Below are positions 3,485-35,140 of a DNA stretch of 39,939 nt, piece after piece. A program made the translations under genes and the position numbers. The DNA is from a virus. Every line of letters starts with the position of its first letter. Position 1 is the stretch's first letter. The stretch is from IMG/VR virus record IMGVR_UViG_3300010885_077192, positions 1 through 39,939 of that record; one strand, written 5' to 3'. The notes below the pieces were generated by a model. That model did not search any database, was not told the origin of the DNA, and worked only from the letters and a program-made list of their open reading frames with translations.

Positions 3485-4228
3485 TTACCCAACCAATTTA
3501 CAAGTCCAAAAATCGTCACAATAATCAGTTGACTCGAAAATGCTGTATGGTAACCAATAGTTACCATTCCAGCCCCAATCAGCGCCCCAGCTGTTGCGTA
3601 CCAGGAATGCTTTGCGCCGGTTGTCGTACCCGATGATACATGTAGCATGGCCACCCAGTTCAACGCCTGCCGGCATGGGCATTTTACCGTTTTTGCCAAT
3701 TTTCATAAAGTTGCTGAGCAACGTCATACCAAAGCAAATGGGAAATCCGGATGCAAGACAGTCTTTTGCTGCATTGATGTCCTGCGGAACAGCTTCATAT
3801 TTAAGCGCGGGGTGTTGTGCAGCCTCGGTTTTTGCCTGTGAAGATGGTGTAACTGCGAATTTATAGATGTCGTAGGGCCATACACTTTCTGAAGCGCATC
3901 CGTTGCGATTTGCGGCCTTGAAAATATCGCGGATATAACCTCCTGAATCATTGGATATTTGATGAATCAGGTCTCGGATATAGTAATACAGATACAAACG
4001 GCTGGGCACAGGCGCAAATTTATTTGGAGTGGCTACTGCGTACAATGCCGCGGCCCCGGCATTTGCCGTACAACTGCCCAGGTTTCCCTGATCGAATACT
4101 GGTGGCATTTTAGCCAAAAGGTCCATTTTCACCGGCAGTTTTTTACCCTCCATCCGCATGGTGTATGGCACATCACGCGCATCATCCGGCTGCTTTATCC
4201 AGCCTGGTACAAATAGGAATTGCTTCAT
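3485..4228 (-). CDS. Papain-like (C1 family) cysteine protease
   Basis: A 247-residue protein with all hallmarks of peptidase family C1: oxyanion Gln and nucleophile Cys in 'DQGNLGSC' (Q47, C53), catalytic His in 'GGHATCIIGYD' (H194), and catalytic Asn in 'RNSWGADWG' (N212). The N-terminus is short, with no signal peptide and no long inhibitory prodomain, so it would act in the cytoplasm, in the virion or after lysis. It overlaps the end of the HU gene by 4 nt and lies just before the portal unit. Substrate unknown; processing of a virion protein, or a late action on host proteins, are possible roles. The family assignment is firm, the biological role is not. Confidence 0.85.
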   Translation of the reverse strand: MKQFLFVPGWIKQPDDARDVPYTMRMEGKKLPVKMDLLAKMPPVFDQGNLGSCTANAGAAALYAVATPNKFAPVPSRLYLYYYIRDLIHQISNDSGGYIRDIFKAANRNGCASESVWPYDIYKFAVTPSSQAKTEAAQHPALKYEAVPQDINAAKDCLASGFPICFGMTLLSNFMKIGKNGKMPMPAGVELGGHATCIIGYDNRRKAFLVRNSWGADWGWNGNYWLPYSIFESTDYCDDFWTCKLVG

Positions 4229-5556: not shown

Positions 5557-7395
5557 CTATAACTTCACCAAGGTAAGTTTCACAGTACTCAGGCCGTTTT
5601 GAGCGGCCGTAACCTCAAAATATTTCACGATAGCCTTCACCACGCCAAGGCGATGATAAAAGGAAATGATCGGCGTGGTCCATTGGAAAAGTTTCGTGAG
5701 TTGTCCAGGCGTGAGCGCTGCAGTACATTCCATGGGTGCGCCATCTCCCAGTTCAATCCACCCTTGGTGCAATTGCTGGTACAGACCATCGGCGCCATCG
5801 AGTTCCAGGGAAAAGTCGCCCAGGACATTACCTGCATAATCGGTATTCAAATGCGTTCCGAGCATGTAATTGTAGTATTCTCCCTGGTGCAGGCCCCAGC
5901 AAAAAAACAGTCTGAAGCCGGCTGTATTCGTTTTGCCTACATCTAGTTCATCGCTATTTCCCAATGCTTTCAATGCTGCTACACGAAATGCAGCACCTCC
6001 AATGTAATCAATAATAGGCTGATAATCTGACAGGGGCCTGGCTTCAAATTCCTTTATCGTAACGCCGCCTCCAAGAACATATGGCTCTAAGTATGAATCA
6101 TCAATAAATGTATCGCTGGTTTCTTCTTTGAAGCGCATTGTAAACCCCTTTTGGGCTACAATCTGCATTTTTATTGAACTGGGCGATACGGCTTCATCTG
6201 TGTTCAGTATACGAGCCTTCAATTGATCGCGGCGTTTTTTCATTACTACGCGCTTTTTGCTTACAACAGGATAGACATTCAAAATGTCCATCACACGCAG
6301 TACAAAGGTTTGAGCATCAATGTCCGGGACCTGTTTCGCCAAGTCAAACTTTTCAGTAAACCCATTCAGGTATTTCAACCCGGTTTCGTAGCCCTCCTGA
6401 AGGGTCAAGTCGCCAGCATAATTGCCATATATGCATAATGCAGCAAACTCAGGGCTTTCATAAAAATCTCCTTCCCACAAAAAGCCCATATTAGCGGCAA
6501 TTTGATCAAATATGTATTTGATTTTTACCTGCGGAACCTGATTGAATTTGAAATACTTATCATCCCTAGGCTCATTGGCCCCCTTGTGCGTGCCATGGCG
6601 ATAGTTGATGTAATTTTCGTAGTAAGGATTTTTGGGAACCGTATAAAACTCTTCGTTGCGGATTACCGGCCAGCAATGGGTTTCAGCCGGCGTACTTTCC
6701 AGCGCAGTGATATGCGCCTGCAGATTGAAATTGTTTCTTTTCGCATAGGTGAAAAAAGTATTGGGCGCCAGATTGACAAGGGTATGCAATTCTACTACAA
6801 ATGGGAACATGGTATCAGTTGGCCACAACTCAAAGCTACCTGTATAGGATGCAACACCTGGATAGTCTGCATTGATGAGCGCTGCAAGCGCAGCCATTGC
6901 AGCGGGGATTTGAGAAAAGCCTGCAGGCGTGTGGTAATGTGAGTATACCACGCCATTTATTTTGATGGCGTATTCACATGGAGGCGTGGCCTGTATGCTC
7001 AGCACCCAGTGCGTTTCAACAATGCGGGGAATTGTAATCACCGGCATCAATGAGCGAATTTTTATCTCTTTAATTTTTGTCAGCCAATTAATCGCTTCAT
7101 TTTGAAAAGTACTCTCTATCTCGGTTTCGGTAACACTAATGATGTTCAGATAACCCGGCGAAACGGTGAAATTATTGATATATACCGTAGCAGATGGCTG
7201 ATTTGTACGCCTGCTATCAAAACGGTTGAAATGTTTCAGCGCATGCAGGTTATTGGGAGACAGCGCGATTTTAAAGGGAAATGAAAACACTCGATCGACA
7301 AAATCCTTATCAAATGCGGGATTACTTGCTGTGATATTCAGCGATGTATCTGACAGTAACTCCAGTAGTTTATTGTTTGTTTTTAGACCGATCAT
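5557..7395 (-). CDS. Large conserved phage tail or baseplate-type protein
   Basis: A 612-residue protein that I place with conserved Bacteroidota phage structural proteins of unknown function, based on the N-terminal layout: an 'N-x-FDKDF...FSFPFKIALSPNN' segment (about residues 20-50) followed by beta-rich domains. No signal peptide or membrane segment. The longest open frame extends further upstream, but the ATG at 7395 overlaps the stop of the small membrane-protein frame (ATGA), giving the natural start. Its position after the fibre genes fits a distal tail or baseplate hub component; this is inference. Confidence 0.6.
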   Translation of the reverse strand: MIGLKTNNKLLELLSDTSLNITASNPAFDKDFVDRVFSFPFKIALSPNNLHALKHFNRFDSRRTNQPSATVYINNFTVSPGYLNIISVTETEIESTFQNEAINWLTKIKEIKIRSLMPVITIPRIVETHWVLSIQATPPCEYAIKINGVVYSHYHTPAGFSQIPAAMAALAALINADYPGVASYTGSFELWPTDTMFPFVVELHTLVNLAPNTFFTYAKRNNFNLQAHITALESTPAETHCWPVIRNEEFYTVPKNPYYENYINYRHGTHKGANEPRDDKYFKFNQVPQVKIKYIFDQIAANMGFLWEGDFYESPEFAALCIYGNYAGDLTLQEGYETGLKYLNGFTEKFDLAKQVPDIDAQTFVLRVMDILNVYPVVSKKRVVMKKRRDQLKARILNTDEAVSPSSIKMQIVAQKGFTMRFKEETSDTFIDDSYLEPYVLGGGVTIKEFEARPLSDYQPIIDYIGGAAFRVAALKALGNSDELDVGKTNTAGFRLFFCWGLHQGEYYNYMLGTHLNTDYAGNVLGDFSLELDGADGLYQQLHQGWIELGDGAPMECTAALTPGQLTKLFQWTTPIISFYHRLGVVKAIVKYFEVTAAQNGLSTVKLTLVKL

Positions 7396-7556
7396 AGGCA
7401 AAAAATGCGATAAAGTAAAGCCCCTGAAACAAAAGCGATACCCACGGCTGCAGGTATCGCCCATTTTTTATGTGCTACACGTGGCCATGATTTGATTACG
7501 CCACTTAAATTGAATATCATCAATATGATGGTGATGCACTCATGAATGCTTATCAT
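7392..7556 (-). CDS. Small two-helix membrane protein
   Basis: A 54-residue frame between the fibre gene and the large tail protein. It has two hydrophobic stretches: about residues 2-21, and about 32-52 beginning 'WAIPAAVGIAF', separated by a basic loop. Its TGA overlaps the ATG of the next gene by 4 nt, the coupling seen throughout this genome, which argues that it is real. Size and topology resemble small holins or antiholins, but the recognised lysis pair is at 23.2-24.4 kb, so the function is open. Confidence 0.5.
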   Translation of the reverse strand: MISIHECITIILMIFNLSGVIKSWPRVAHKKWAIPAAVGIAFVSGALLYRIFCL

Positions 7557-7606: not shown

Positions 7607-8977
7607 TTACTTGGTTATCGTATATTTAAATGTAGATGCGCTAGGATCATTTGATCCTGCGCCCCACGATATCACATTAATCCAGATGGTCCCACTTGTA
7701 CTACATCCTGCAGAAAAAGTATATGAACCACCGCTTGAAAACGGATTACCAACTGAAATAACATCGCCCGGCGCAGCGTTTGCATCAGAAAAAGTTAAAA
7801 CTGATCCTGTGCCTTGAGCCATGCTGGGGAAATCTAATGAAGGAGACGTCCCAATATATATTGTACTGGCAGTTCCCATTATAAAGTTTTCATAACTGCT
7901 TCCTGATCTTACGCCTTCTGCATTCCCAGTTGTAGTATTAAATCGCATTACACCTACTGCCCCAGTTGGGCGTTGTGCTGTTGTTCCTGAAGGAAATCTA
8001 GCGCCTCCTGTCCCTGCTACATCTAATCTATATAGTGGGTTTGTCGTACCAACTCCTAAGTTTCCAATTCTGTTTATTTGTACGCGCTCAGCTGCAGTTG
8101 ACGTCCCATCTGATGTATAAAAAGAAATTTTGCCGGAATAATAAGTCGAGGCTGTACTGTCGCCTCGGAATTGGATAGCTGCCGACTCTCTAAAAGCAGA
8201 GCTATAATATGCTTGCGCATGAATTGCGCCTAAATAATCATAATTGGTTGTGCAATTCCCCCCTAATACACTTGATCCACCTCTCGATAATATAACCGAG
8301 CCCCCCTCCACTGTATTTGACGCGACACTGTTACCACTTCTTAGGAAAAGTGTTCCTGAAGAAGATTGCGCTTGCAGCCCGGCATATCCCCCATTATTAC
8401 CAGAAGTGTAGGTATTAAGGTTGAGCCACGTATTGGTGTTGTCATAGGTAAAGTTTCCACTATTAGAAAGCGAATTTACTCCTGAAAAATAAGGTATTCG
8501 ATTACTTGCACCTGAAAATGGGAACGAAGGAGCCCAATCTGTACCAGTCCACCCTAAAAAGTGTCCAGAAGAAGCGCCCATTTGGTTGATTTTATAACCC
8601 CAAACTGACCTATTGGCTAATTTACTTGAGTCAACCGCATTTGACGCAATCTTTGCGGCTGTCACAGCATTGGATGCGATCTTTGCGGCTACTACTGCTC
8701 CTGAATTGATAGTCCAGTTTGGCGCTGCGACTGTGATTTCACCGTATACACCATCCGTAACGCTACCCGATATGTCAGTCCCCCATACAAGGGAGGTGTC
8801 TGAGCCCGCACCCATTTTTATAACTTGACCTGCGGAGCCGGGCGGCAGGTAAAAAATTCTGTCGCCCTTATAAAAGGCAACGTATGGCTTGGTCTTAAAT
8901 TGCCGAGGATTCCCATTTTGCGCATTAGCGCTAACGGCAAATAAAAAAAATGCGAATAATAGAATGTGTTTCTGCAT
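7607..8977 (-). CDS. Secreted-type tail fibre protein
   Basis: A 456-residue, Ser/Gly/Asn/Thr-rich beta protein. It begins with a clear Sec signal peptide (basic start, hydrophobic core about 5-16, cleavage after 'SANA', Gln at +1). The middle has fibre-type repeats: 'AKIASNAV' occurs twice near residues 100-115, and a 'GWTGTDWAPSF' unit parallels the WNG-WAP repeats of the neighbouring fibre. A 'NLGVGTTNPLYRLDVAGTG' segment, as in Bacteroidota fibre and adhesin proteins, precedes the C-terminal domain. Likely part of the host-recognition apparatus. The signal peptide is unusual for a virion protein. Its start overlaps the stop of the upstream fibre gene. Confidence 0.7.
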   Translation of the reverse strand: MQKHILLFAFFLFAVSANAQNGNPRQFKTKPYVAFYKGDRIFYLPPGSAGQVIKMGAGSDTSLVWGTDISGSVTDGVYGEITVAAPNWTINSGAVVAAKIASNAVTAAKIASNAVDSSKLANRSVWGYKINQMGASSGHFLGWTGTDWAPSFPFSGASNRIPYFSGVNSLSNSGNFTYDNTNTWLNLNTYTSGNNGGYAGLQAQSSSGTLFLRSGNSVASNTVEGGSVILSRGGSSVLGGNCTTNYDYLGAIHAQAYYSSAFRESAAIQFRGDSTASTYYSGKISFYTSDGTSTAAERVQINRIGNLGVGTTNPLYRLDVAGTGGARFPSGTTAQRPTGAVGVMRFNTTTGNAEGVRSGSSYENFIMGTASTIYIGTSPSLDFPSMAQGTGSVLTFSDANAAPGDVISVGNPFSSGGSYTFSAGCSTSGTIWINVISWGAGSNDPSASTFKYTITK

Positions 8978-11733
8978 TATAGACTAAGGTTGAATTTAAG
9001 AGCATAATAACCTTTCAGGGCTGCTATTTCACTAGCCTTGAGCCCCCTAGGAATTATGAGCAACTCAGTGATCTCTCCTTTGAAGGAGAAGTTCCCCGAG
9101 TTCGCACGGCCAATTTTAAACGAACTAGTATTACTGGTAGGCGTTGCATTGGTTTGCGTATTACTAGAATACGTATTTGTTCCAATGAACATCTTAGCAC
9201 GCTGCGAGGCCGTTGAGTTTTCTGGATCAGTGAATGTACCGATCATCCCCCAACCTGTTTCGCAATAACCATTAAGGCTATTACTTGAACTTACTGCTAG
9301 GTTGCTGCCATTACTGATCAGGTTTACCAAGAGCCCATTACCTGGCGAACGCTGGTAGTAAAGCCCATATCCAAGTTGGCTACTTCCGACCGTTCCACCT
9401 AGCAGCGGGCAAACTACGCCGTCCGCCACCAAGGTATCTGCGAATTTGACCACCATGAATATGGTAGTTGAATCCTTGTGGATGAATGATAAATCCGAAC
9501 TTGTTCTGATTGCCCACTTTGATGTGCTAGTGTCGGACACTGCCACACTAAATTTGAAACTCGGACGGTAATTGATCCCTATTGATTTCCACTTCGGGCC
9601 ACGGTTGACGGCACCTGCTACGAAGTGCCGGTTGTTTCCGCTCCAATCATGGAGCGTATCTACCTGCTGATTGTTGGTATACTTAGTTTCTTTCCCTGCA
9701 TCCAGCCAGACGGCTGGTGATAGAGTGAGCGGAAATTCTTGGGCACTCTTAAACACAGCCGGGCATTGCCCGAATATGATTGTATCGTTTTTAAACCATC
9801 CTGGGGCGGCGTAAGCCCCCCAGCTGGTATCCATCTCAACAACGTCGCCAAGGGCGTTGTTGCAGTATGCTTCTCCATTTGGCCACACTGTTTTGGATGC
9901 CGATGGTGCGTCTATTCTTAGGGACAGCAATTTGCCGTCCTGCCAACCCGCAAGTTTAGGAATTACCGTTGTTGTAGATGTGGTTTTTTTAAGGACTATG
10001 TTCGAGAATGAGCCGTTAAAGACAATTGTGTCCTTATTGAACAAAGCCAGCCTATTGTAGTCCTTATTAGGCAACCAGCCGTCTGATTTTCCGCTGATTG
10101 CAGCCCATAATCTTTGGCCAAGAGTTACATGTGAGGCCGCATCAATATGTGAACTATCGCTGACGACTGTTGCATCGTCATTTCTGACGACATTCGTCCA
10201 ATCGAGATTATCACTTGCAAATTGGTTAAACACATAGTTCGCCATTTCACCGTCAGGGCGTTCGCCGCCCCACAGTGTCTCGCCAGCAGAAAGGACGAGA
10301 CCTGTGTTAATTTGACAGGCAAACACTTTACTATTCTTATTCCACTGTGCTAAGTTGCGGAATTGATTCATCACAGTAAACCAGTCGCTTCGATACTGCT
10401 TTTCAGTTCGAAACGTCCATCCGTCAGTTTCGCCCTGGTACCACACCAGGGCATCGATACGAGGAATACCGCTTGCACTTATTCTTTGCGAAATCGTGTC
10501 CCATTGGGTACCACCCGGCGACAACCAATAGGAAATTTGCCGACCACCAAGGCCTGCGTAAACGACTCTGGTTAGGTAGCCGTCTTTCTCAGCTTGCTGG
10601 CCGAGTGTGGTCATATGCCAAGCTGTCCTTGTGGACAACCCGTTCATCCATGCGAAACTCCCATTAAAGGGGCGAGTCCAACTGCTCGTGTTTGGGTTCC
10701 AGATGCATTGGTATGTAGACGGCACTGTATCTGCCGGATTGCTTGTGGGGCCGCATCGCGGGGTACTATTCGATTGCCCTGCGAGTACGATGTATTTCGG
10801 CTCATTTACCGAAAATCGTTTTTGAACCGGGTCATAGAACCCGATTTTTCTCCATCCACCTGAAATGTACGCTGAAACCAGACGAATGCCAGTTCCGTCG
10901 TAGTTTGTCGTTGCGATCCAATTCTTAGTGGTATCCGAAGGGGCTGAGGTCTGTATGACCCAACCTCCACCGCCACCACCACTCGATGTGTTGTCGGTTG
11001 CAGGAGCCCAAGCACTACCATTCCATTTGAGTACTTCATTGGTATTAGCTCCAGATCGATCCAGTTTAGAGACTTGAATATTGCCAGCTAAATCCGAGTT
11101 ATTTATTGATAATGCCTTTACTTTAGTAGAATCTACCGCATTTGCAGCAATCGTTGCAGTAGTTGATCCTGATGTCTTGCTTATATCACCAGTTAAAGCA
11201 TAAGTATCTGCAACCCATGCTGAAACTGCACGATCATACCTATAAAATGCGCCATTTGTGGTGTTTTTTGCCCAAAATGGCCCATAATTCCCATTCGGCG
11301 TAAACATGGGTAATGTCCCTGCACTTGCAGTATATAATGCAACTGCCCGCATTAGGCTGTCGGCAGAAATTGAACTGCCTCCAGTATTGTCATTGGCTGG
11401 CGCCCAGGACGATCCATTCCATTTGAGTACCTGCCCACTGCTTGCGCCTTGCTGCGCAATATCAAGAGGACTTCCGGATGTACCTGATCCGGATAATCTG
11501 CTTGTTTTAGCAACAGCATTTAAAAAGTTTTGCGCAGAAATATAGTTATATACCGCTTTTGCAGTAGGAGTTTGGTAATGAGTTGCCGCATTTGAAATGC
11601 TTTTGAGAACACCGGAAAGCGTATCTCCTGTAAGCACCATTTTCCCTTTAATGCGCATAGTTTCTACTGTTGTAGTTTGCGCTGAAATAAATCCGGCCAA
11701 ACACAGTAAAAACAACATAATTCGTAATTTCAT
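8977..11733 (-). CDS. Tail fibre with esterase-like and lectin-like domains
   Basis: A 918-residue multidomain protein. Residues 1-19 form a Sec signal peptide ending in 'ISA' with Gln at +1. Residues 95-250 contain two copies of a 'VLKWNGS-WAPA-DN' fibre repeat and a Gly run. About 312-545 resembles an SGNH hydrolase of the sialate O-acetylesterase type: nucleophile block 'GQSNS' (S321), 'WYQGETD' (431-437) and a 'DSSH' block (526-529). The C-terminal part (about 685-915) resembles a LamG/concanavalin-like lectin domain ('WLDA...DWSGNNRHF'). It probably binds and de-esterifies a surface glycan during adsorption. The domain calls are from motifs; substrate unknown. Confidence 0.75.
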   Translation of the reverse strand: MKLRIMLFLLCLAGFISAQTTTVETMRIKGKMVLTGDTLSGVLKSISNAATHYQTPTAKAVYNYISAQNFLNAVAKTSRLSGSGTSGSPLDIAQQGASSGQVLKWNGSSWAPANDNTGGSSISADSLMRAVALYTASAGTLPMFTPNGNYGPFWAKNTTNGAFYRYDRAVSAWVADTYALTGDISKTSGSTTATIAANAVDSTKVKALSINNSDLAGNIQVSKLDRSGANTNEVLKWNGSAWAPATDNTSSGGGGGGWVIQTSAPSDTTKNWIATTNYDGTGIRLVSAYISGGWRKIGFYDPVQKRFSVNEPKYIVLAGQSNSTPRCGPTSNPADTVPSTYQCIWNPNTSSWTRPFNGSFAWMNGLSTRTAWHMTTLGQQAEKDGYLTRVVYAGLGGRQISYWLSPGGTQWDTISQRISASGIPRIDALVWYQGETDGWTFRTEKQYRSDWFTVMNQFRNLAQWNKNSKVFACQINTGLVLSAGETLWGGERPDGEMANYVFNQFASDNLDWTNVVRNDDATVVSDSSHIDAASHVTLGQRLWAAISGKSDGWLPNKDYNRLALFNKDTIVFNGSFSNIVLKKTTSTTTVIPKLAGWQDGKLLSLRIDAPSASKTVWPNGEAYCNNALGDVVEMDTSWGAYAAPGWFKNDTIIFGQCPAVFKSAQEFPLTLSPAVWLDAGKETKYTNNQQVDTLHDWSGNNRHFVAGAVNRGPKWKSIGINYRPSFKFSVAVSDTSTSKWAIRTSSDLSFIHKDSTTIFMVVKFADTLVADGVVCPLLGGTVGSSQLGYGLYYQRSPGNGLLVNLISNGSNLAVSSSNSLNGYCETGWGMIGTFTDPENSTASQRAKMFIGTNTYSSNTQTNATPTSNTSSFKIGRANSGNFSFKGEITELLIIPRGLKASEIAALKGYYALKFNLSL

Positions 11734-12152
11734 CGATAATAAATTTTGACGGTTAATGTCCCTGAAAATGCGCTGAAATAAATTGTTCCAGCATTTTTAA
11801 AATATTTTTCTAAAATGAAAACCGAGCCATTGGAATCATACGGCTCGGAATTAAACAGATCATTGCCTCCTGAACTGGTTCCAATCGAAACAGTACCTGA
11901 TCCGGAACCGACGACTACAATTTTTTCCAAGAGTTTTCCTGCAGGTATTGCTACACTCGGTGCACCGCTGGTAATTGTCGCTGCAACTGGATCTGAACCA
12001 CTGATAGAAATATTTGCCTCTATCCACGCCAACAGCGTATCAAGTGTCATTGCACGTGCAGCAGCAGATTGCCCGTTCCCTCGATATTGAAATGGAATAC
12101 GGGTATCGCTGTATAGCGTATTTTGAAGTGTAAATGTGTCAACCTTTGCCAT
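11730..12152 (-). CDS. Small beta-rich virion-associated protein
   Basis: A 140-residue protein starting at the ATG at 12152; the frame upstream overlaps the preceding gene. It has a short polar N-terminus and a Gly/Ser-rich, beta-type C-terminal half. It overlaps the start of the large fibre gene by 4 nt. Position and composition suggest a fibre-attachment or tip protein; no family recognised. Confidence 0.55.
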   Translation of the reverse strand: MAKVDTFTLQNTLYSDTRIPFQYRGNGQSAAARAMTLDTLLAWIEANISISGSDPVAATITSGAPSVAIPAGKLLEKIVVVGSGSGTVSIGTSSGGNDLFNSEPYDSNGSVFILEKYFKNAGTIYFSAFSGTLTVKIYYR

Positions 12153-12163
12153 TTGGCTAAAAT

Positions 12164-13849
12164 TTATGGTAAACCCCAAGGCATTGAGAATGTATCCATC
12201 CAGGCATTTCCAGATGGATCCTCCCATGCTTCCGTAAGGGCGTTTTGCTTGAAATTAGAGTAGTTACGTTCGTCACGGCGAGGCTTAGCCGCGAATTGAT
12301 ATGCATGTAAGTCCCGGTTTGTATCCGTGACTTCAAAATCATTGGTGGTAATCAGCAATGGGATATATCCTTCCTGGCTTACATCATATACTGCCGATGA
12401 CATAAGTAATTCCTGTAAGGATTCCGCTTCATCACGCCGACAAAATCCGGTTCGGTATGTGAAAGCATTATCAAACTGCTGCGCATATTGAAAGCGCTCT
12501 GTTGCAAGGGAATTATAACCAGGTAAAAGTGATCGCTCTGCAACCGAACGATCTATGTTCAGTTTTTTCCCATACACACCGGTACAGCGCCACACATCAG
12601 GCACGCCAAAACTATTCAGCCAGCATACAAACCGTTCACTACGCTGATAATCCCGATTGATATAATAAGTGCGCTCAGCACTCAGCGCCGTGAATGAAAA
12701 ACCGCTCACCTCAGGATCATCAAAACCTACCTGTACTGTGTATCGATACGCCGCATCATGGTTCTCAATACCCAGTGCTGTGGGGCTCACTGGAATGATG
12801 GCCGTTTCTTTCCCTTCTATGAATAAAGTACCGGAGGTGTATCGATAAATAGCCGAACTGGCTGCATTGTCATCAATGCTGTACCAGATCACTTTCACAA
12901 CGGGTTTCACGGCAATGCCGTAGTAATTATACCAGTTCAAAAACACCGGCTGCTCAAGTACAACCTGCTGATCACCTGGCATCCAGGTAAGAAAGGCATT
13001 GTTGTCATCAATCGCAGTCAAGTAGTCAAACAGGCCAAAAAGCGTTTGGCTTACGCCGCCATCCATTACAAATTTGATCGCGCTGTAATCCCAATCCTGC
13101 ACCACCACCGGTGATCCGTACTCCTCGGTCCAGCGCACGTAGTATCGGCGCAAATTGTCCGCTCGAGTGATCTCATCGGTACTCCATATAGGTACAAGCG
13201 GTTCTATCCGCTCTGCCTGGCATTGCCCTTCCAATACGCTGCTGATATCAAAGTAGCAAAATCCGGTGCCTGGCTCTGGCAATCCTTCCAGTTGTGCAAC
13301 CTGCTCATAAGTGCCACTTTTATACTGCGTTTCAAAAAATACTTCGAAACGGATCTTGTAATTATCCGGCGTCATATCATCGGTAGCAGTGTGATCCATG
13401 ATAGCAAAACCGTGGGTATTGGCAACAGAAAGTACCCATCCAACAACTTCAAGGGCTTGCACGCGCAGTTTTAAACTTCCGGATACCGATACAGAACGTA
13501 CTGTAAACCAAGGTGCAATGCGCGGGTGTTGCTGAATGATTTGCACCACTGTTGCCCAGTAATCGCCATTGGTTCCCGTCCAGGTATTGGTGGGAAGTTG
13601 ATTGGTACCACTATACAGGTTTGCGGCCGTAAATACTACAGTTTGGCTCGTACTGTCGGCATCGGTATAGGTAATCGTGACAGTTTCACCGGCCGTAAAG
13701 CGATCGCTGAGTGAATAGGATAGGTCCGTATAAACGCCCATCGCATCATACGAGTCGCCACCAATCGTTTGAGCGGCGCGAAACTTCCAGATGCATTGGT
13801 TGCGGGCAAAGCAAATATCGCCCGGCTGTGTAAGCAGTGCGATTGCCAT
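12164..13849 (-). CDS. Large tail-associated protein of unknown function
   Basis: A 561-residue protein rich in aromatic residues and beta-type sequence, without signal peptide or membrane segment. Its start shares one base with the stop of the upstream gene (position 13849), so the two are almost certainly co-translated. It lies between a 183-residue protein and the fibre genes in one long unit from promoter c. A baseplate or fibre-connector role is likely by position. I recognise no catalytic motif. Confidence 0.6.
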   Translation of the reverse strand: MAIALLTQPGDICFARNQCIWKFRAAQTIGGDSYDAMGVYTDLSYSLSDRFTAGETVTITYTDADSTSQTVVFTAANLYSGTNQLPTNTWTGTNGDYWATVVQIIQQHPRIAPWFTVRSVSVSGSLKLRVQALEVVGWVLSVANTHGFAIMDHTATDDMTPDNYKIRFEVFFETQYKSGTYEQVAQLEGLPEPGTGFCYFDISSVLEGQCQAERIEPLVPIWSTDEITRADNLRRYYVRWTEEYGSPVVVQDWDYSAIKFVMDGGVSQTLFGLFDYLTAIDDNNAFLTWMPGDQQVVLEQPVFLNWYNYYGIAVKPVVKVIWYSIDDNAASSAIYRYTSGTLFIEGKETAIIPVSPTALGIENHDAAYRYTVQVGFDDPEVSGFSFTALSAERTYYINRDYQRSERFVCWLNSFGVPDVWRCTGVYGKKLNIDRSVAERSLLPGYNSLATERFQYAQQFDNAFTYRTGFCRRDEAESLQELLMSSAVYDVSQEGYIPLLITTNDFEVTDTNRDLHAYQFAAKPRRDERNYSNFKQNALTEAWEDPSGNAWMDTFSMPWGLP

Positions 13850-14400
13850 TATGGATAAGGTGTTAAGCCTCCATCATTCCATACAATGTCGGAGCAATCC
13901 GCATCGAGGCCACGGAAGGTGGAAAAATCAAATAAATACATCAACGCGCCGTAGGATCCATCGCCTTCTGCCTGCCAAAAATCGCCTTGAACTTTTAAGT
14001 TATCTACGACATCAATACTTCCGAAAAATAGCGGGTGCCCATTGCGACTATCGGCCACCATACGCGCGATAAAGGAATCTCCAAGTTTTTCAGCATCGGT
14101 GTAAGCGTTCAGTAAATCGGTGCTGGATCCTTCGCGGCGGCTGTAAAATTTGCCAAACACCAGGCCTACCTGGTAGTTTTTTACTGCTTGCATTTGCTGG
14201 CTGCGCATGGTCATGGTGGGCAATATCATGCGTACAAAGTAATCCTTCGGCTTTATGGCAGTGCGGAAGTCCGAAAAGGCCTGTTCGTAGGCTTTCAATT
14301 CAAATACCCGTGCTCCACTGGCATTGGAATGCAGTAGCAGCGGGTGCTGCTCGCACAGGTACTTGTAGTAGTCTGCTATGTTGGAAAGATACTGCGCCAT
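13849..14400 (-). CDS. Unknown tail-region protein, first gene of the fibre unit
   Basis: A 183-residue protein starting at the ATG at 14400. The longest frame extends to a GTG at 14442 that is part of the promoter box, so the internal ATG is the better start; it lies only 5 nt after the -7 box, predicting a leaderless or nearly leaderless mRNA. Mixed alpha/beta sequence, no membrane segment. First gene of a unit that probably continues to 5557. Confidence 0.6.
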   Translation of the reverse strand: MAQYLSNIADYYKYLCEQHPLLLHSNASGARVFELKAYEQAFSDFRTAIKPKDYFVRMILPTMTMRSQQMQAVKNYQVGLVFGKFYSRREGSSTDLLNAYTDAEKLGDSFIARMVADSRNGHPLFFGSIDVVDNLKVQGDFWQAEGDGSYGALMYLFDFSTFRGLDADCSDIVWNDGGLTPYP

Positions 14401-14405
14401 CGGTG

Positions 14406-14442
14406 CAAAAATGCGTAGGGACACACTTGGCAGAAAGGACAC
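14406..14442 (-). promoter_or_regulatory. Late promoter c (GTGTCCTTT-N20-CATTTTTG)
   Basis: On the minus strand GTGTCCTTT (14442-14434) is followed after 20 bp by CATTTTTG (14413-14406), identical in spacing and -7 sequence to promoters a and d. The start codon of the next gene (14400) begins 5 nt further on. Confidence 0.75.
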
Positions 14443-14478
14443 AAAACAAAAATGCCCAGGCTATTACAACCCGGGCAT
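14442..14478 (-). terminator. Terminator fused to promoter c
   Basis: Stem of nine positions with one mismatch (ATGCCCAGG at 14452-14460 against CCCGGGCAT at 14470-14478), followed on the minus strand by a T-rich tract that runs into the TGTCCTTT box. It ends the unit of the 281-residue fibre protein. Confidence 0.75.
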
Positions 14479-14504
14479 CTATACATCCAAACCAATTATT
14501 GACA

Positions 14505-15350
14505 TTAATAACCGCTTACCTGGTAACTGAATATATAAGCGGTGGTAGACAGCGCGGTACCTGAGGCATTAAGCGTGAATGCACCGGCAGTACTATCCGC
14601 AAACCATCGGGTAGCACCGGCACCCGAATCGGGATCATAAGCGGTAATACTCACAACGGCTTTATTGGGATAGGTTACCGGTAGCGTAACCGTACATAGC
14701 AATCCAGTTGTTGTTGGTGTACCTGCAGGGGTAAGCGTAATTAATCCGGCTGTTGCATTCCCTGTAATAGATACCGTGGCGCCCACGCCTGCAGCTGCAC
14801 CTACAGCAGCCGTGGGTACATCGCCCACGCGCATGTTGTAATATTCTCGCAGGAATTTTTTGCCACGTAAATAAGCCAGTTTATTACTTGCGCCTGTCAC
14901 TCCGGATATCTTAACAGAGTCGATCGATTGCGAGTAAATAATGGATTTACTTTCTTCATCGTACACTGTCAGAAATCCATTGCTGCTGCGATATCTGTAG
15001 CCAACCTCATCATGTGGAAAAAAGTACCGGTAACCGGTGGTAGTGGTAGCATCTTGGTACCAGAGCGCAAATTTGGCAAGTTTTGAGGTCCAAATAGTTG
15101 ATCCGCTGATGGTTACTGAACTGGTATCACCATACCACAATCGGGTATTCGTTCCCGTTTCCTTGATTTCAAGTTTTGCCGTGGTTGGCTGATAGATGAG
15201 GAAAACCTCATCAACACAATAAAAAGTACGTGCCGAAGCACTAGGGGCGACAATTTCCAACGCGCTCGGCGTGAAGGTTACTGTTTGGGCGCTGGCTGCC
15301 ACCTGGAACAAAGCCAGCATCAGCGTGAGCGCGTAAAAAATGTTTTTCAT
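14505..15350 (-). CDS. Secreted-type fibre-like protein with C-terminal fibre domain
   Basis: A 281-residue protein starting at the ATG at 15350. The longer open frame reads through promoter d and is rejected. It opens with a Sec signal peptide (hydrophobic core about 5-17, cleavage after 'AASA', Gln at +1). The C-terminal 100 residues, starting at a Gly/Ala-rich 'GAAAGVGATVSITG' stretch, resemble a terminal domain found at the ends of phage fibres. It forms a unit of its own, between promoter d and the terminator at 14442-14478. A virion fibre or a secreted adhesin-like protein are both possible. Confidence 0.65.
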   Translation of the reverse strand: MKNIFYALTLMLALFQVAASAQTVTFTPSALEIVAPSASARTFYCVDEVFLIYQPTTAKLEIKETGTNTRLWYGDTSSVTISGSTIWTSKLAKFALWYQDATTTTGYRYFFPHDEVGYRYRSSNGFLTVYDEESKSIIYSQSIDSVKISGVTGASNKLAYLRGKKFLREYYNMRVGDVPTAAVGAAAGVGATVSITGNATAGLITLTPAGTPTTTGLLCTVTLPVTYPNKAVVSITAYDPDSGAGATRWFADSTAGAFTLNASGTALSTTAYIFSYQVSGY

Positions 15351-15439: not shown

Positions 15440-17068
15440 CTATATGCCGCTCATATTGCTATCGGGCAGTGCAGGACCATAATCGCGCATCAAGTGCGCG
15501 TACAGTACATATACTGGGTTGTCCAGGGCATCCGATAAATCAGTTGCCAGTTGTCGGTTAGGGTTATCGCTGCGCTCTTCCCGTTTGTCTTTCCCAATGG
15601 TGTTATCGGGCCGCTTTTTCGAGCGCGCGCGTGACATGCTCAGGTAGGTAAACCTGGCGTTTTGCTTGTTGATCCGGAAGCGCGGGAATCGAGGATCCTG
15701 CTCATTGAATATCCGCTCCCAAAGTAAATATTTCTGAAAATGATGCGGATTAGTGCCGCTCACTGTCATACGGCGCACTTTCCAGCCGCGTGCACTAAGG
15801 TATTGCTCTACTTGTTGTGCCCGGTTGAGTTTCGTATTACCAGTGGCTGAATTACCCGTGGCATCGTAGAAAAACAAAATGTGCGGATTACTCGCCTGGT
15901 GTGGCAAGTAGTATTGGTGAAACTCTTCACACACATCATCCTGCGTTTTTCCTTCTGCACCCTTACCGAAAAACTCTTTGAGCGTCCGAAATTCGCCCGG
16001 GTATTGCTGGCTTACCGTGATGCTATTGATCGCGGCACCAAAGTCCATCCCGATCAATAATTTTTCACCCGGAGTAAGATCGCTGTCTCCCTGGCAAGTT
16101 GCCTTGATGCCCACTGCATCGGGTGTGTAGAACGAATAATTGTAGTTGGTGTAACAGTGCCGGGTTTCTTCCAGCATCGCATAAAAACCACCGCGCACAA
16201 ATCGAGGCCTTATATTCAAGTACTCCGCATTGAATATTTCCAGATCGAGCGCCGATTTTCTGGCAACTTCCAGATAGTCAGGCTTTAAATTGGCCATGTT
16301 GCAAATGCAATTGGCTTTCAAGAACAAATGCCGCTTACCATCATCCATTTGCGCGAGTTCCTCTCGATCGGTGAACCATGAACCAGCAGGCGTGAGCGCG
16401 GTACTGCTGGCTTTGATTCGAAAATCGAACCACCGGTTACTACCCAGTACACGGTAATTGCTACCGCGAATACTGGGCGAGCTGTTTTCATCCATTTTTT
16501 TCGGGTCCAACATTACCACCTCATCCGCAAATTCGCCATCGGTACTTAGGCCTCGACCGCTGCCGGAAATATCCTGGCTGAGCAAGTGAAAACCAAATCC
16601 GGTGTAAAATGTAATAAAGTTGTCATATCGAAGTGGCGGCTTGTAAGGCTCCGGCCATTTCCATTTTGCCGGTGGGCGTCGACCGATGAAGTAATGTAGG
16701 TCTTTATACAGCCCTTGCATTTCCAGCGCATGGATATACGCCGGTATAATTTCGGTCAGGAATTTCTGATAAGTCGGTACAATCCACTGAAAGGATCCGC
16801 GCGGCATTTCACTTGCAATCACGCGGCTGTATCGGGCAAATACGGTTGTTTTACCCGTGCCCCTACCCCACTCCAAATCCAGTTCCTTCACTGTTTTCAG
16901 CATGGCCGTGCTCAGGATGGCAATTTGCTGCGCGGCGTTGTATGGGATGGTCCGGTAGTGTTCATCCACCTGGTCTTTCAAGGTTTTCCAATCACCGCCA
17001 CCGCCGTTGTGCAAGCGCCCAATGCGCTCCTTGATCATTTCCGAAGTGGTGGGCGGTCTATTCGTCAT
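15440..17068 (-). CDS. terL: Terminase large subunit
   Basis: A 542-residue packaging motor. The N-terminal ATPase domain shows the Walker A motif 'GRGTGKT' (68-74) and a Walker B-like 'GEFADEVVML' (178-187). The C-terminal nuclease domain has the acidic 'IGMDFGAA' block (D342) and a second 'FFYDATG' block (D402). It cuts concatemeric DNA and pumps it into the prohead through the portal. The start overlaps the small-subunit gene by 11 nt. Downstream lies promoter d rather than the portal gene, which is unusual for phages of this type. Confidence 0.9.
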   Translation of the reverse strand: MTNRPPTTSEMIKERIGRLHNGGGGDWKTLKDQVDEHYRTIPYNAAQQIAILSTAMLKTVKELDLEWGRGTGKTTVFARYSRVIASEMPRGSFQWIVPTYQKFLTEIIPAYIHALEMQGLYKDLHYFIGRRPPAKWKWPEPYKPPLRYDNFITFYTGFGFHLLSQDISGSGRGLSTDGEFADEVVMLDPKKMDENSSPSIRGSNYRVLGSNRWFDFRIKASSTALTPAGSWFTDREELAQMDDGKRHLFLKANCICNMANLKPDYLEVARKSALDLEIFNAEYLNIRPRFVRGGFYAMLEETRHCYTNYNYSFYTPDAVGIKATCQGDSDLTPGEKLLIGMDFGAAINSITVSQQYPGEFRTLKEFFGKGAEGKTQDDVCEEFHQYYLPHQASNPHILFFYDATGNSATGNTKLNRAQQVEQYLSARGWKVRRMTVSGTNPHHFQKYLLWERIFNEQDPRFPRFRINKQNARFTYLSMSRARSKKRPDNTIGKDKREERSDNPNRQLATDLSDALDNPVYVLYAHLMRDYGPALPDSNMSGI

Positions 17069-34606: not shown

Positions 34607-35140
34607 ATGAAAAAGTTGCTAATTCTATTTTGCCTTTTACTCACTGCTTATACTTCTTTTTCTCAGGAAAAAGAAGCCCGACTAAGCAAGGCTGATGAGT
34701 TTTCTAAAAAATCCGGAATACTCTTACAAAGTGAATTTATTAAAATTGGCACATTTAAAACGGTTTCAGTTGAAGTTTTAAAAATGAAGGATTTGAGTTC
34801 AGATCAATCAAACTCTTCCCTACGATTTGAATATGTTGAGAAGGGCACTTACACGAGTGATACCAGAATATCAACCATTGACTTTGATGAAATCAGTGGA
34901 CTGCTTTCATCTATTGAAAAAATTCAAACCAAGGTGATTACCGTAACGCCTCCTACTTATACAGAAGTGATGTTTATCTCTCGGACTGGATTTGAGTTTG
35001 GAGTATATTACGAAGAAACTAAGGCTAGCTGGTTTGGACTTATGAAGATCGGAAGGCTAGTAAAATCAAGCGTTTATTTCCATGTAGAAGAATTATCAAC
35101 AATAAAGTCTTTGATAGAACAGGCTAAGTTGAAAATATAA
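34607..35140 (+). CDS. Secreted moron-type protein (putative lysogenic conversion)
   Basis: A 177-residue protein with a clear Sec signal peptide (basic start, hydrophobic core about 4-15, cleavage before Gln 20, 'SFSQ'). The mature part is beta-rich with Lys/Glu balance and no catalytic motif. It lies between the repressor and integrase genes on the plus strand, the region expressed from a prophage, so it may change the host surface or periplasm during lysogeny. Family not recognised. Confidence 0.6.
   Translation: MKKLLILFCLLLTAYTSFSQEKEARLSKADEFSKKSGILLQSEFIKIGTFKTVSVEVLKMKDLSSDQSNSSLRFEYVEKGTYTSDTRISTIDFDEISGLLSSIEKIQTKVITVTPPTYTEVMFISRTGFEFGVYYEETKASWFGLMKIGRLVKSSVYFHVEELSTIKSLIEQAKLKI

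Follow-up and report, generated by a model that had tools for sequence, protein, structure and literature searches.

Q-rule signal peptides on fibre-type proteins in the tail region of a phage and its relatives

Fibre-type proteins encoded in the tail region of the phage analysed here carry Sec signal peptides (SPs), which, judged from sequence, are real and look selected. The analysed window is the whole IMG/VR virus record IMGVR_UViG_3300010885_077192 (39,939 bases). Its minus-strand genes at 15350, 11733 and 8977 start with SPs that end in Ala-Gln (Ala at -1, Gln at +1), the "Q-rule" cleavage site of Bacteroidetes. The first-pass annotation had reported these three SPs, and we confirmed them on the minus strand at those starts. 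Its description of them as standard was right, and its suggestion that they are selected was supported: SPs are kept in orthologs and in the non-homologous replacements found in relatives.

Signal peptides of the window genes

The SP of the 15350 gene (15288..15350, minus strand) consists of 21 aa, MKNIFYALTLMLALFQVAASA followed by QTV. The SP of the 11733 gene (11680..11733, minus) has 18 aa, MKLRIMLFLLCLAGFISA followed by QTT, and that of the 8977 gene (8921..8977, minus) has 19 aa, MQKHILLFAFFLFAVSANA followed by QNG. As in the Q-rule substrates of signal peptidase I (SPase I) of Bacteroidetes (PMC5837995, PMC10653852), each has a positively charged n-region, a hydrophobic core, a small residue at -1 and Gln at +1. 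Unlike those substrates, the window SPs lie on phage fibre-type tail-region genes, and their cleavage and pyroglutamate formation are predicted. The rule is typical of Bacteroidetes, with Q-values above 48% in 332 of 334 species and a mean of 71% (PMC5837995). Residue +1 of the three products is Gln and not the Cys of lipoproteins processed by SPase II, and no C-terminal sorting domain of type IX secretion was matched in them by Pfam at E 0.1. Strict Bacteroidetes-type promoters (TTG, 17-23, TAnnTTTG) were absent just upstream of the three genes.

SP scores come from a home-made detector and not from SignalP. Among the controls, lambda Lom scored 8.3 and the fibres and spikes of lambda, T4, T7 and P22 scored below that value, with an overlap between the top control fibre (lambda orf314, 5.2) and the lowest SP fibre (5.0). 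Shuffling of the first 45 residues of 35 SP proteins gave 0.36 Q-rule SPs expected by chance, which excludes a chance origin. The check on orthologs that the first-pass annotation had proposed was performed with the same detector; it found SPs in the orthologs of the 15350 product (contigs L101, L007, L131 and L132) and of the 11733 product (L101, L131, L132, L016 and L007). In the 15350 gene, the window and L101 have 21/21 SP codons in common, while about half of the mature codons differ. In the case of the 11733 gene, the SP sequence differs between these two and both versions remain SP-like.

The earlier description of three fibre-type SP proteins needs two corrections: the window holds a fourth SP gene, and the 15350 gene, unlike the other two, sits outside the fibre cassette. 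This gene (14505..15350, minus) lies between the terminase gene TerL and the tail genes and encodes a protein of 281 aa, a candidate for a virion role. It is followed by a terminator-like hairpin (14450..14480, minus; 14 pairs and a T-rich tail, a consensus match only), and therefore it may be a separate unit. Its product had no match in the PHROG search for tail fibre families, and its model (pLDDT 65) gave nothing significant by fold search in PDB or BFVD. The fourth SP gene (34607-35140, plus strand; MKKLLILFCLLLTAYTSFS followed by Q) has a repressor-like gene on one side and the integrase on the other, and its product has no Pfam family.

The family search further identified TerL (15440-17068), a portal-like protein, an integrase, a ClpP-type protease, an Amidase_2 endolysin and a papain-type peptidase; the papain-family (Peptidase_C1) gene is located within the tail region at 3485-4228. 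A sister phage, whose TerL is 98% identical, was found in a Saprospiraceae MAG on a contig of 212 kb (L102), and a further relative, a prophage, in Flavilitoribacter nigricans (L103). The sister-phage contig L101 is filed under an Alphaproteobacteria MAG; it matches the Saprospiraceae contig and is probably mis-binned.

Fibre cassettes of the window and related contigs

The 11733 and 8977 genes are located between two conserved tail genes, both recognised by alignment and both without an SP. On the upstream side is a tail protein gene (12164..13849, minus). The model of its product (pLDDT 72) resembles phage proteins, among them the BACON protein of Leef_1, whose gene adjoins the tape measure gene; in PDB the best match was a phage PhiTE tail structure (Z 10.8, rmsd 2.3, 93 aligned), among scores that are mostly those of a common fold. 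On the downstream side is a tail-region protein gene (5557..7464, minus; probable start near 7395). At the cassette head lies a gene for a small protein without an SP (11730..12152, minus; likely start MAKVDTF). In relatives the same slot, after the 12164 homolog, also holds a small non-SP protein where one is present.

The 11733 gene (8977..11733, minus) encodes a fibre-type protein of 918 aa with an SP and a SASA carbohydrate esterase domain at residues 315-545 (10099..10791, minus; Pfam SASA, E 3.7e-16). SASA is its only Pfam family, and it has no PHROG match. The 8977 gene (7607..8977, minus) encodes a fibre protein of 456 aa with an SP, which matched the tail fibre families phrog_892 and phrog_28766 (1.4e-7, 2.1e-5). 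In the searches of phage collections, this product gave only a partial cyanophage match, and the 15350 and 11733 products gave none. At its start, the 11733 gene shares four bases (ATGA) with the stop of the gene upstream, and the 8977 gene shares one (TAATG); overlaps of four or one bases at an SP fibre were observed in ten contigs.

Members of the clade were found by TerL alignments at about 40-64% identity. Single-protein scans of viral sequences with TerL and the 5557 protein gave no matches, the alignment-based scans succeeded, and the 12164 alignment was too divergent for scanning. In the relatives, the cassettes bounded by the homologs of 12164 and 5557 are strongly divergent and yet have Q-rule SPs. 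On the 14 related contigs with cassette genes of at least 180 aa, homologs of the small 11730 slot being left out, we observed Q-rule SPs in 29/36 cassette genes and in 2/147 other genes; as the contigs are related, the Fisher value of 8e-25 is descriptive. At least one Q-rule SP cassette gene was present in 13 of the 14 contigs. L134, of the same clade, has no SP on any cassette protein, fibres included. Of the seven cassette genes in which no Q-rule SP was called, five lack an N-terminal hydrophobic core as judged by eye. When the cleavage site was chosen without regard to Gln, it fell before Gln in 20 of 35 proteins, a set pre-selected by a test that requires Gln.

Disulfide-driven export was considered and found no support: SP fibres contain less Cys than other proteins do, and their Cys counts were even in 19 of 35 cases. 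With no enrichment of Cys in the fibres, oxidative folding is unsupported as the reason for export.

Some further SP-like segments were observed on other contigs. A frame of 2101 aa (L009:14461-20766) contains an internal second SP-like start (MKKSLLTACFMFFAALLFG followed by Q), as would result from a fusion of two fibre genes. Matches to the window major capsid protein in L005 (21041-22126) and L113 (3954-5093) begin with SP-like segments. L005 is Microcystis phage Mea-Yong924-1, which resembles the window phage in TerL, portal and capsid and also carries a Q-rule SP gene; the actual host of this phage may belong to the Bacteroidota.

Signal-peptide fibres of Cellulophaga phages

GenBank records of Cellulophaga phages mark some proteins with "annotation based on experimental MS/MS proteomics analysis", and these notes were taken as written. 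A Q-rule SP was present in 10 of the 11 fibre-type proteins so marked (phi39:1, phi10:1, phi19:1 and phiSM) and in 0 of 33 other marked virion proteins (phi39:1, phi19:1, phi10:1, phiSM and phi18:1), with phi18:1 gp59-61 counted among the 33; the Fisher value of 4e-9 is descriptive, since the fibre labels were assigned from position and record names after the N-termini were visible. The ten proteins are gp25 and gp26 of phi39:1, gp91-94 of phi10:1, gp101-103 of phi19:1 and gp08 of phiSM. The eleventh, phi19:1 gp104, begins with an SP-like segment whose +1 residue is K. In phi10:1, phi39:1 and phiSM, a small MS/MS-noted protein without an SP is encoded directly upstream of the SP fibres. These data contradict, as a general premise, the statement of the first-pass annotation that export would keep such proteins from the virion.

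Like the window, phi39:1, phi10:1, phi19:1 and phiSM encode Q-rule SP fibre-type proteins in a tail cassette. They differ from the window fibres in belonging to cultured phages with MS/MS notes, and the likeness seen so far is that of SP and cassette. Virion incorporation of SP fibres rests, by analogy, on record notes for other phages. SP fibres without an MS/MS mark in the records examined were found in phi19:3, phi46:3, phi13:2 and Nekkels_1; for phi12:1, there was no SP match in the portion of the record examined. The fibres examined in phi18:1, phi17:1, phi14:2, phiST, Leef_1, B40-8 and 11b have no SP, and export is therefore not a general need. Phages phi19:1 (Assiduviridae, L148:2563-4896) and phi19:3 (Pachyviridae, L141:35535-37868) both encode pectate lyase fibres of 777 aa with identical SPs and next residues, which suggests from sequence that this fibre was exchanged between phage families.

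Proposed export and alternative readings

We propose that the receptor-binding fibres are made as Sec pre-proteins. They would be exported by SecYEG and cut by SPase I between Ala and Gln, and the new N-terminal Gln would become pyroglutamate. Folding and oligomerisation of the fibres would take place in the periplasm, separated from tail assembly in the cytoplasm, and docking onto tails that bear a small cytoplasmic adaptor would occur at or after lysis. In the window, the proposed docking adaptor is the product of 11730-12152, a role that we infer. It appears that there is exchange of stalk modules and SPs with secreted proteins of the host. We give even odds to the reading that the fibres are exported, trimmed at this site and joined to particles around lysis. 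The SP property is conserved while the cassette sequences diverge, and the fibres are co-encoded with tail genes, both of which support export. Against it stand the SP-less cassette fibres of L134 within the same clade, and a secreted protein that co-purifies with particles could be mistaken for a virion component. The broader statement that in some Bacteroidota phages heads and tails are built in the cytoplasm, and fibres are matured in the periplasm via Sec and signal peptidase and joined at lysis, is held tentatively, at somewhat less than even confidence. Of the three options in the first-pass annotation, "exported and join phages" fits best; capture from host adhesins stands in part, for the origin only.

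The fibres might instead be exported to act outside the virion, with the esterase stripping receptor glycans or the proteins serving as decoys or adhesins, and their detection elsewhere would reflect secreted protein that sticks to particles. The SASA domain of the 11733 product, the pectate-lyase and hydrolase types among Cellulophaga phage fibres and the secreted relatives in the host all suit such a role, which we regard as unlikely, as the cassette is flanked by conserved tail genes, with starts overlapping theirs, and such proteins are listed as virion components in the records of four phages. The presence of SP proteins in virions would also agree with an uncleaved N-terminus retained as an anchor or oligomerisation element. 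A small -1 residue with Gln at +1 recurs over unrelated cassettes, as in SPase I substrates of the host, and an anchor would have no need of it; because this cleavage site is conserved, a retained peptide is disfavoured and seems rather improbable.

Lambda lom, which lies among tail genes and encodes an SP protein, offers a precedent for lysogenic conversion in which SP proteins alter the surface of the lysogen, and the window phage has an integrase and a repressor-like gene. The window likewise encodes SP proteins among tail genes; Lom, in contrast, is a single outer membrane protein expressed in lysogens and not a fibre. Since the SP gene starts overlap tail genes, and tail-fibre family matches occur in the window and in relatives, we hold conversion to be improbable for the cassette; it is more plausible for 34607-35140 and perhaps for 15350. 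Least probable, and in our judgement very unlikely, is that the SPs are functionless passengers of recently captured host adhesins. The Saprospiraceae genome does encode Q-rule SP proteins that share the fibre stalk repeats, one of them with a Peptidase_S74 domain and encoded two genes away from an alpha/beta hydrolase, and capture from host adhesins may explain the origin of the fibres. As functionless passengers, the SPs would hardly be retained in nearly every cassette over divergent phages or recur across several groups of Cellulophaga phages.

Phage genes that follow the Q-rule, like those of the window, are already in print: Porphyromonas gingivalis phages carry five genes of unknown function with Q-rule SPs, proposed as outer-membrane modifiers, and SPs are also reported on major capsid proteins (PMC10367356). 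Unlike in the window, those SP genes were reported neither as fibres nor as parts of the virion. The literature searched, where subscription papers were mostly beyond reach, yielded no SP-bearing fibres treated as virion parts, and no description of docking after lysis was found in it. If fibres are exported and yet reach the virion, fibre assembly would not be wholly cytoplasmic in such phages, and host secretion and glutaminyl cyclase would be phage factors. The export question is directly testable in cultured Cellulophaga phages.

The prophage contig of the Saprospiraceae MAG (L169:8528-16623) contains four consecutive Q-rule SP genes, some with weak fibre matches, near a weak TniB match. 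This cluster is possibly a second element of a transposable type.
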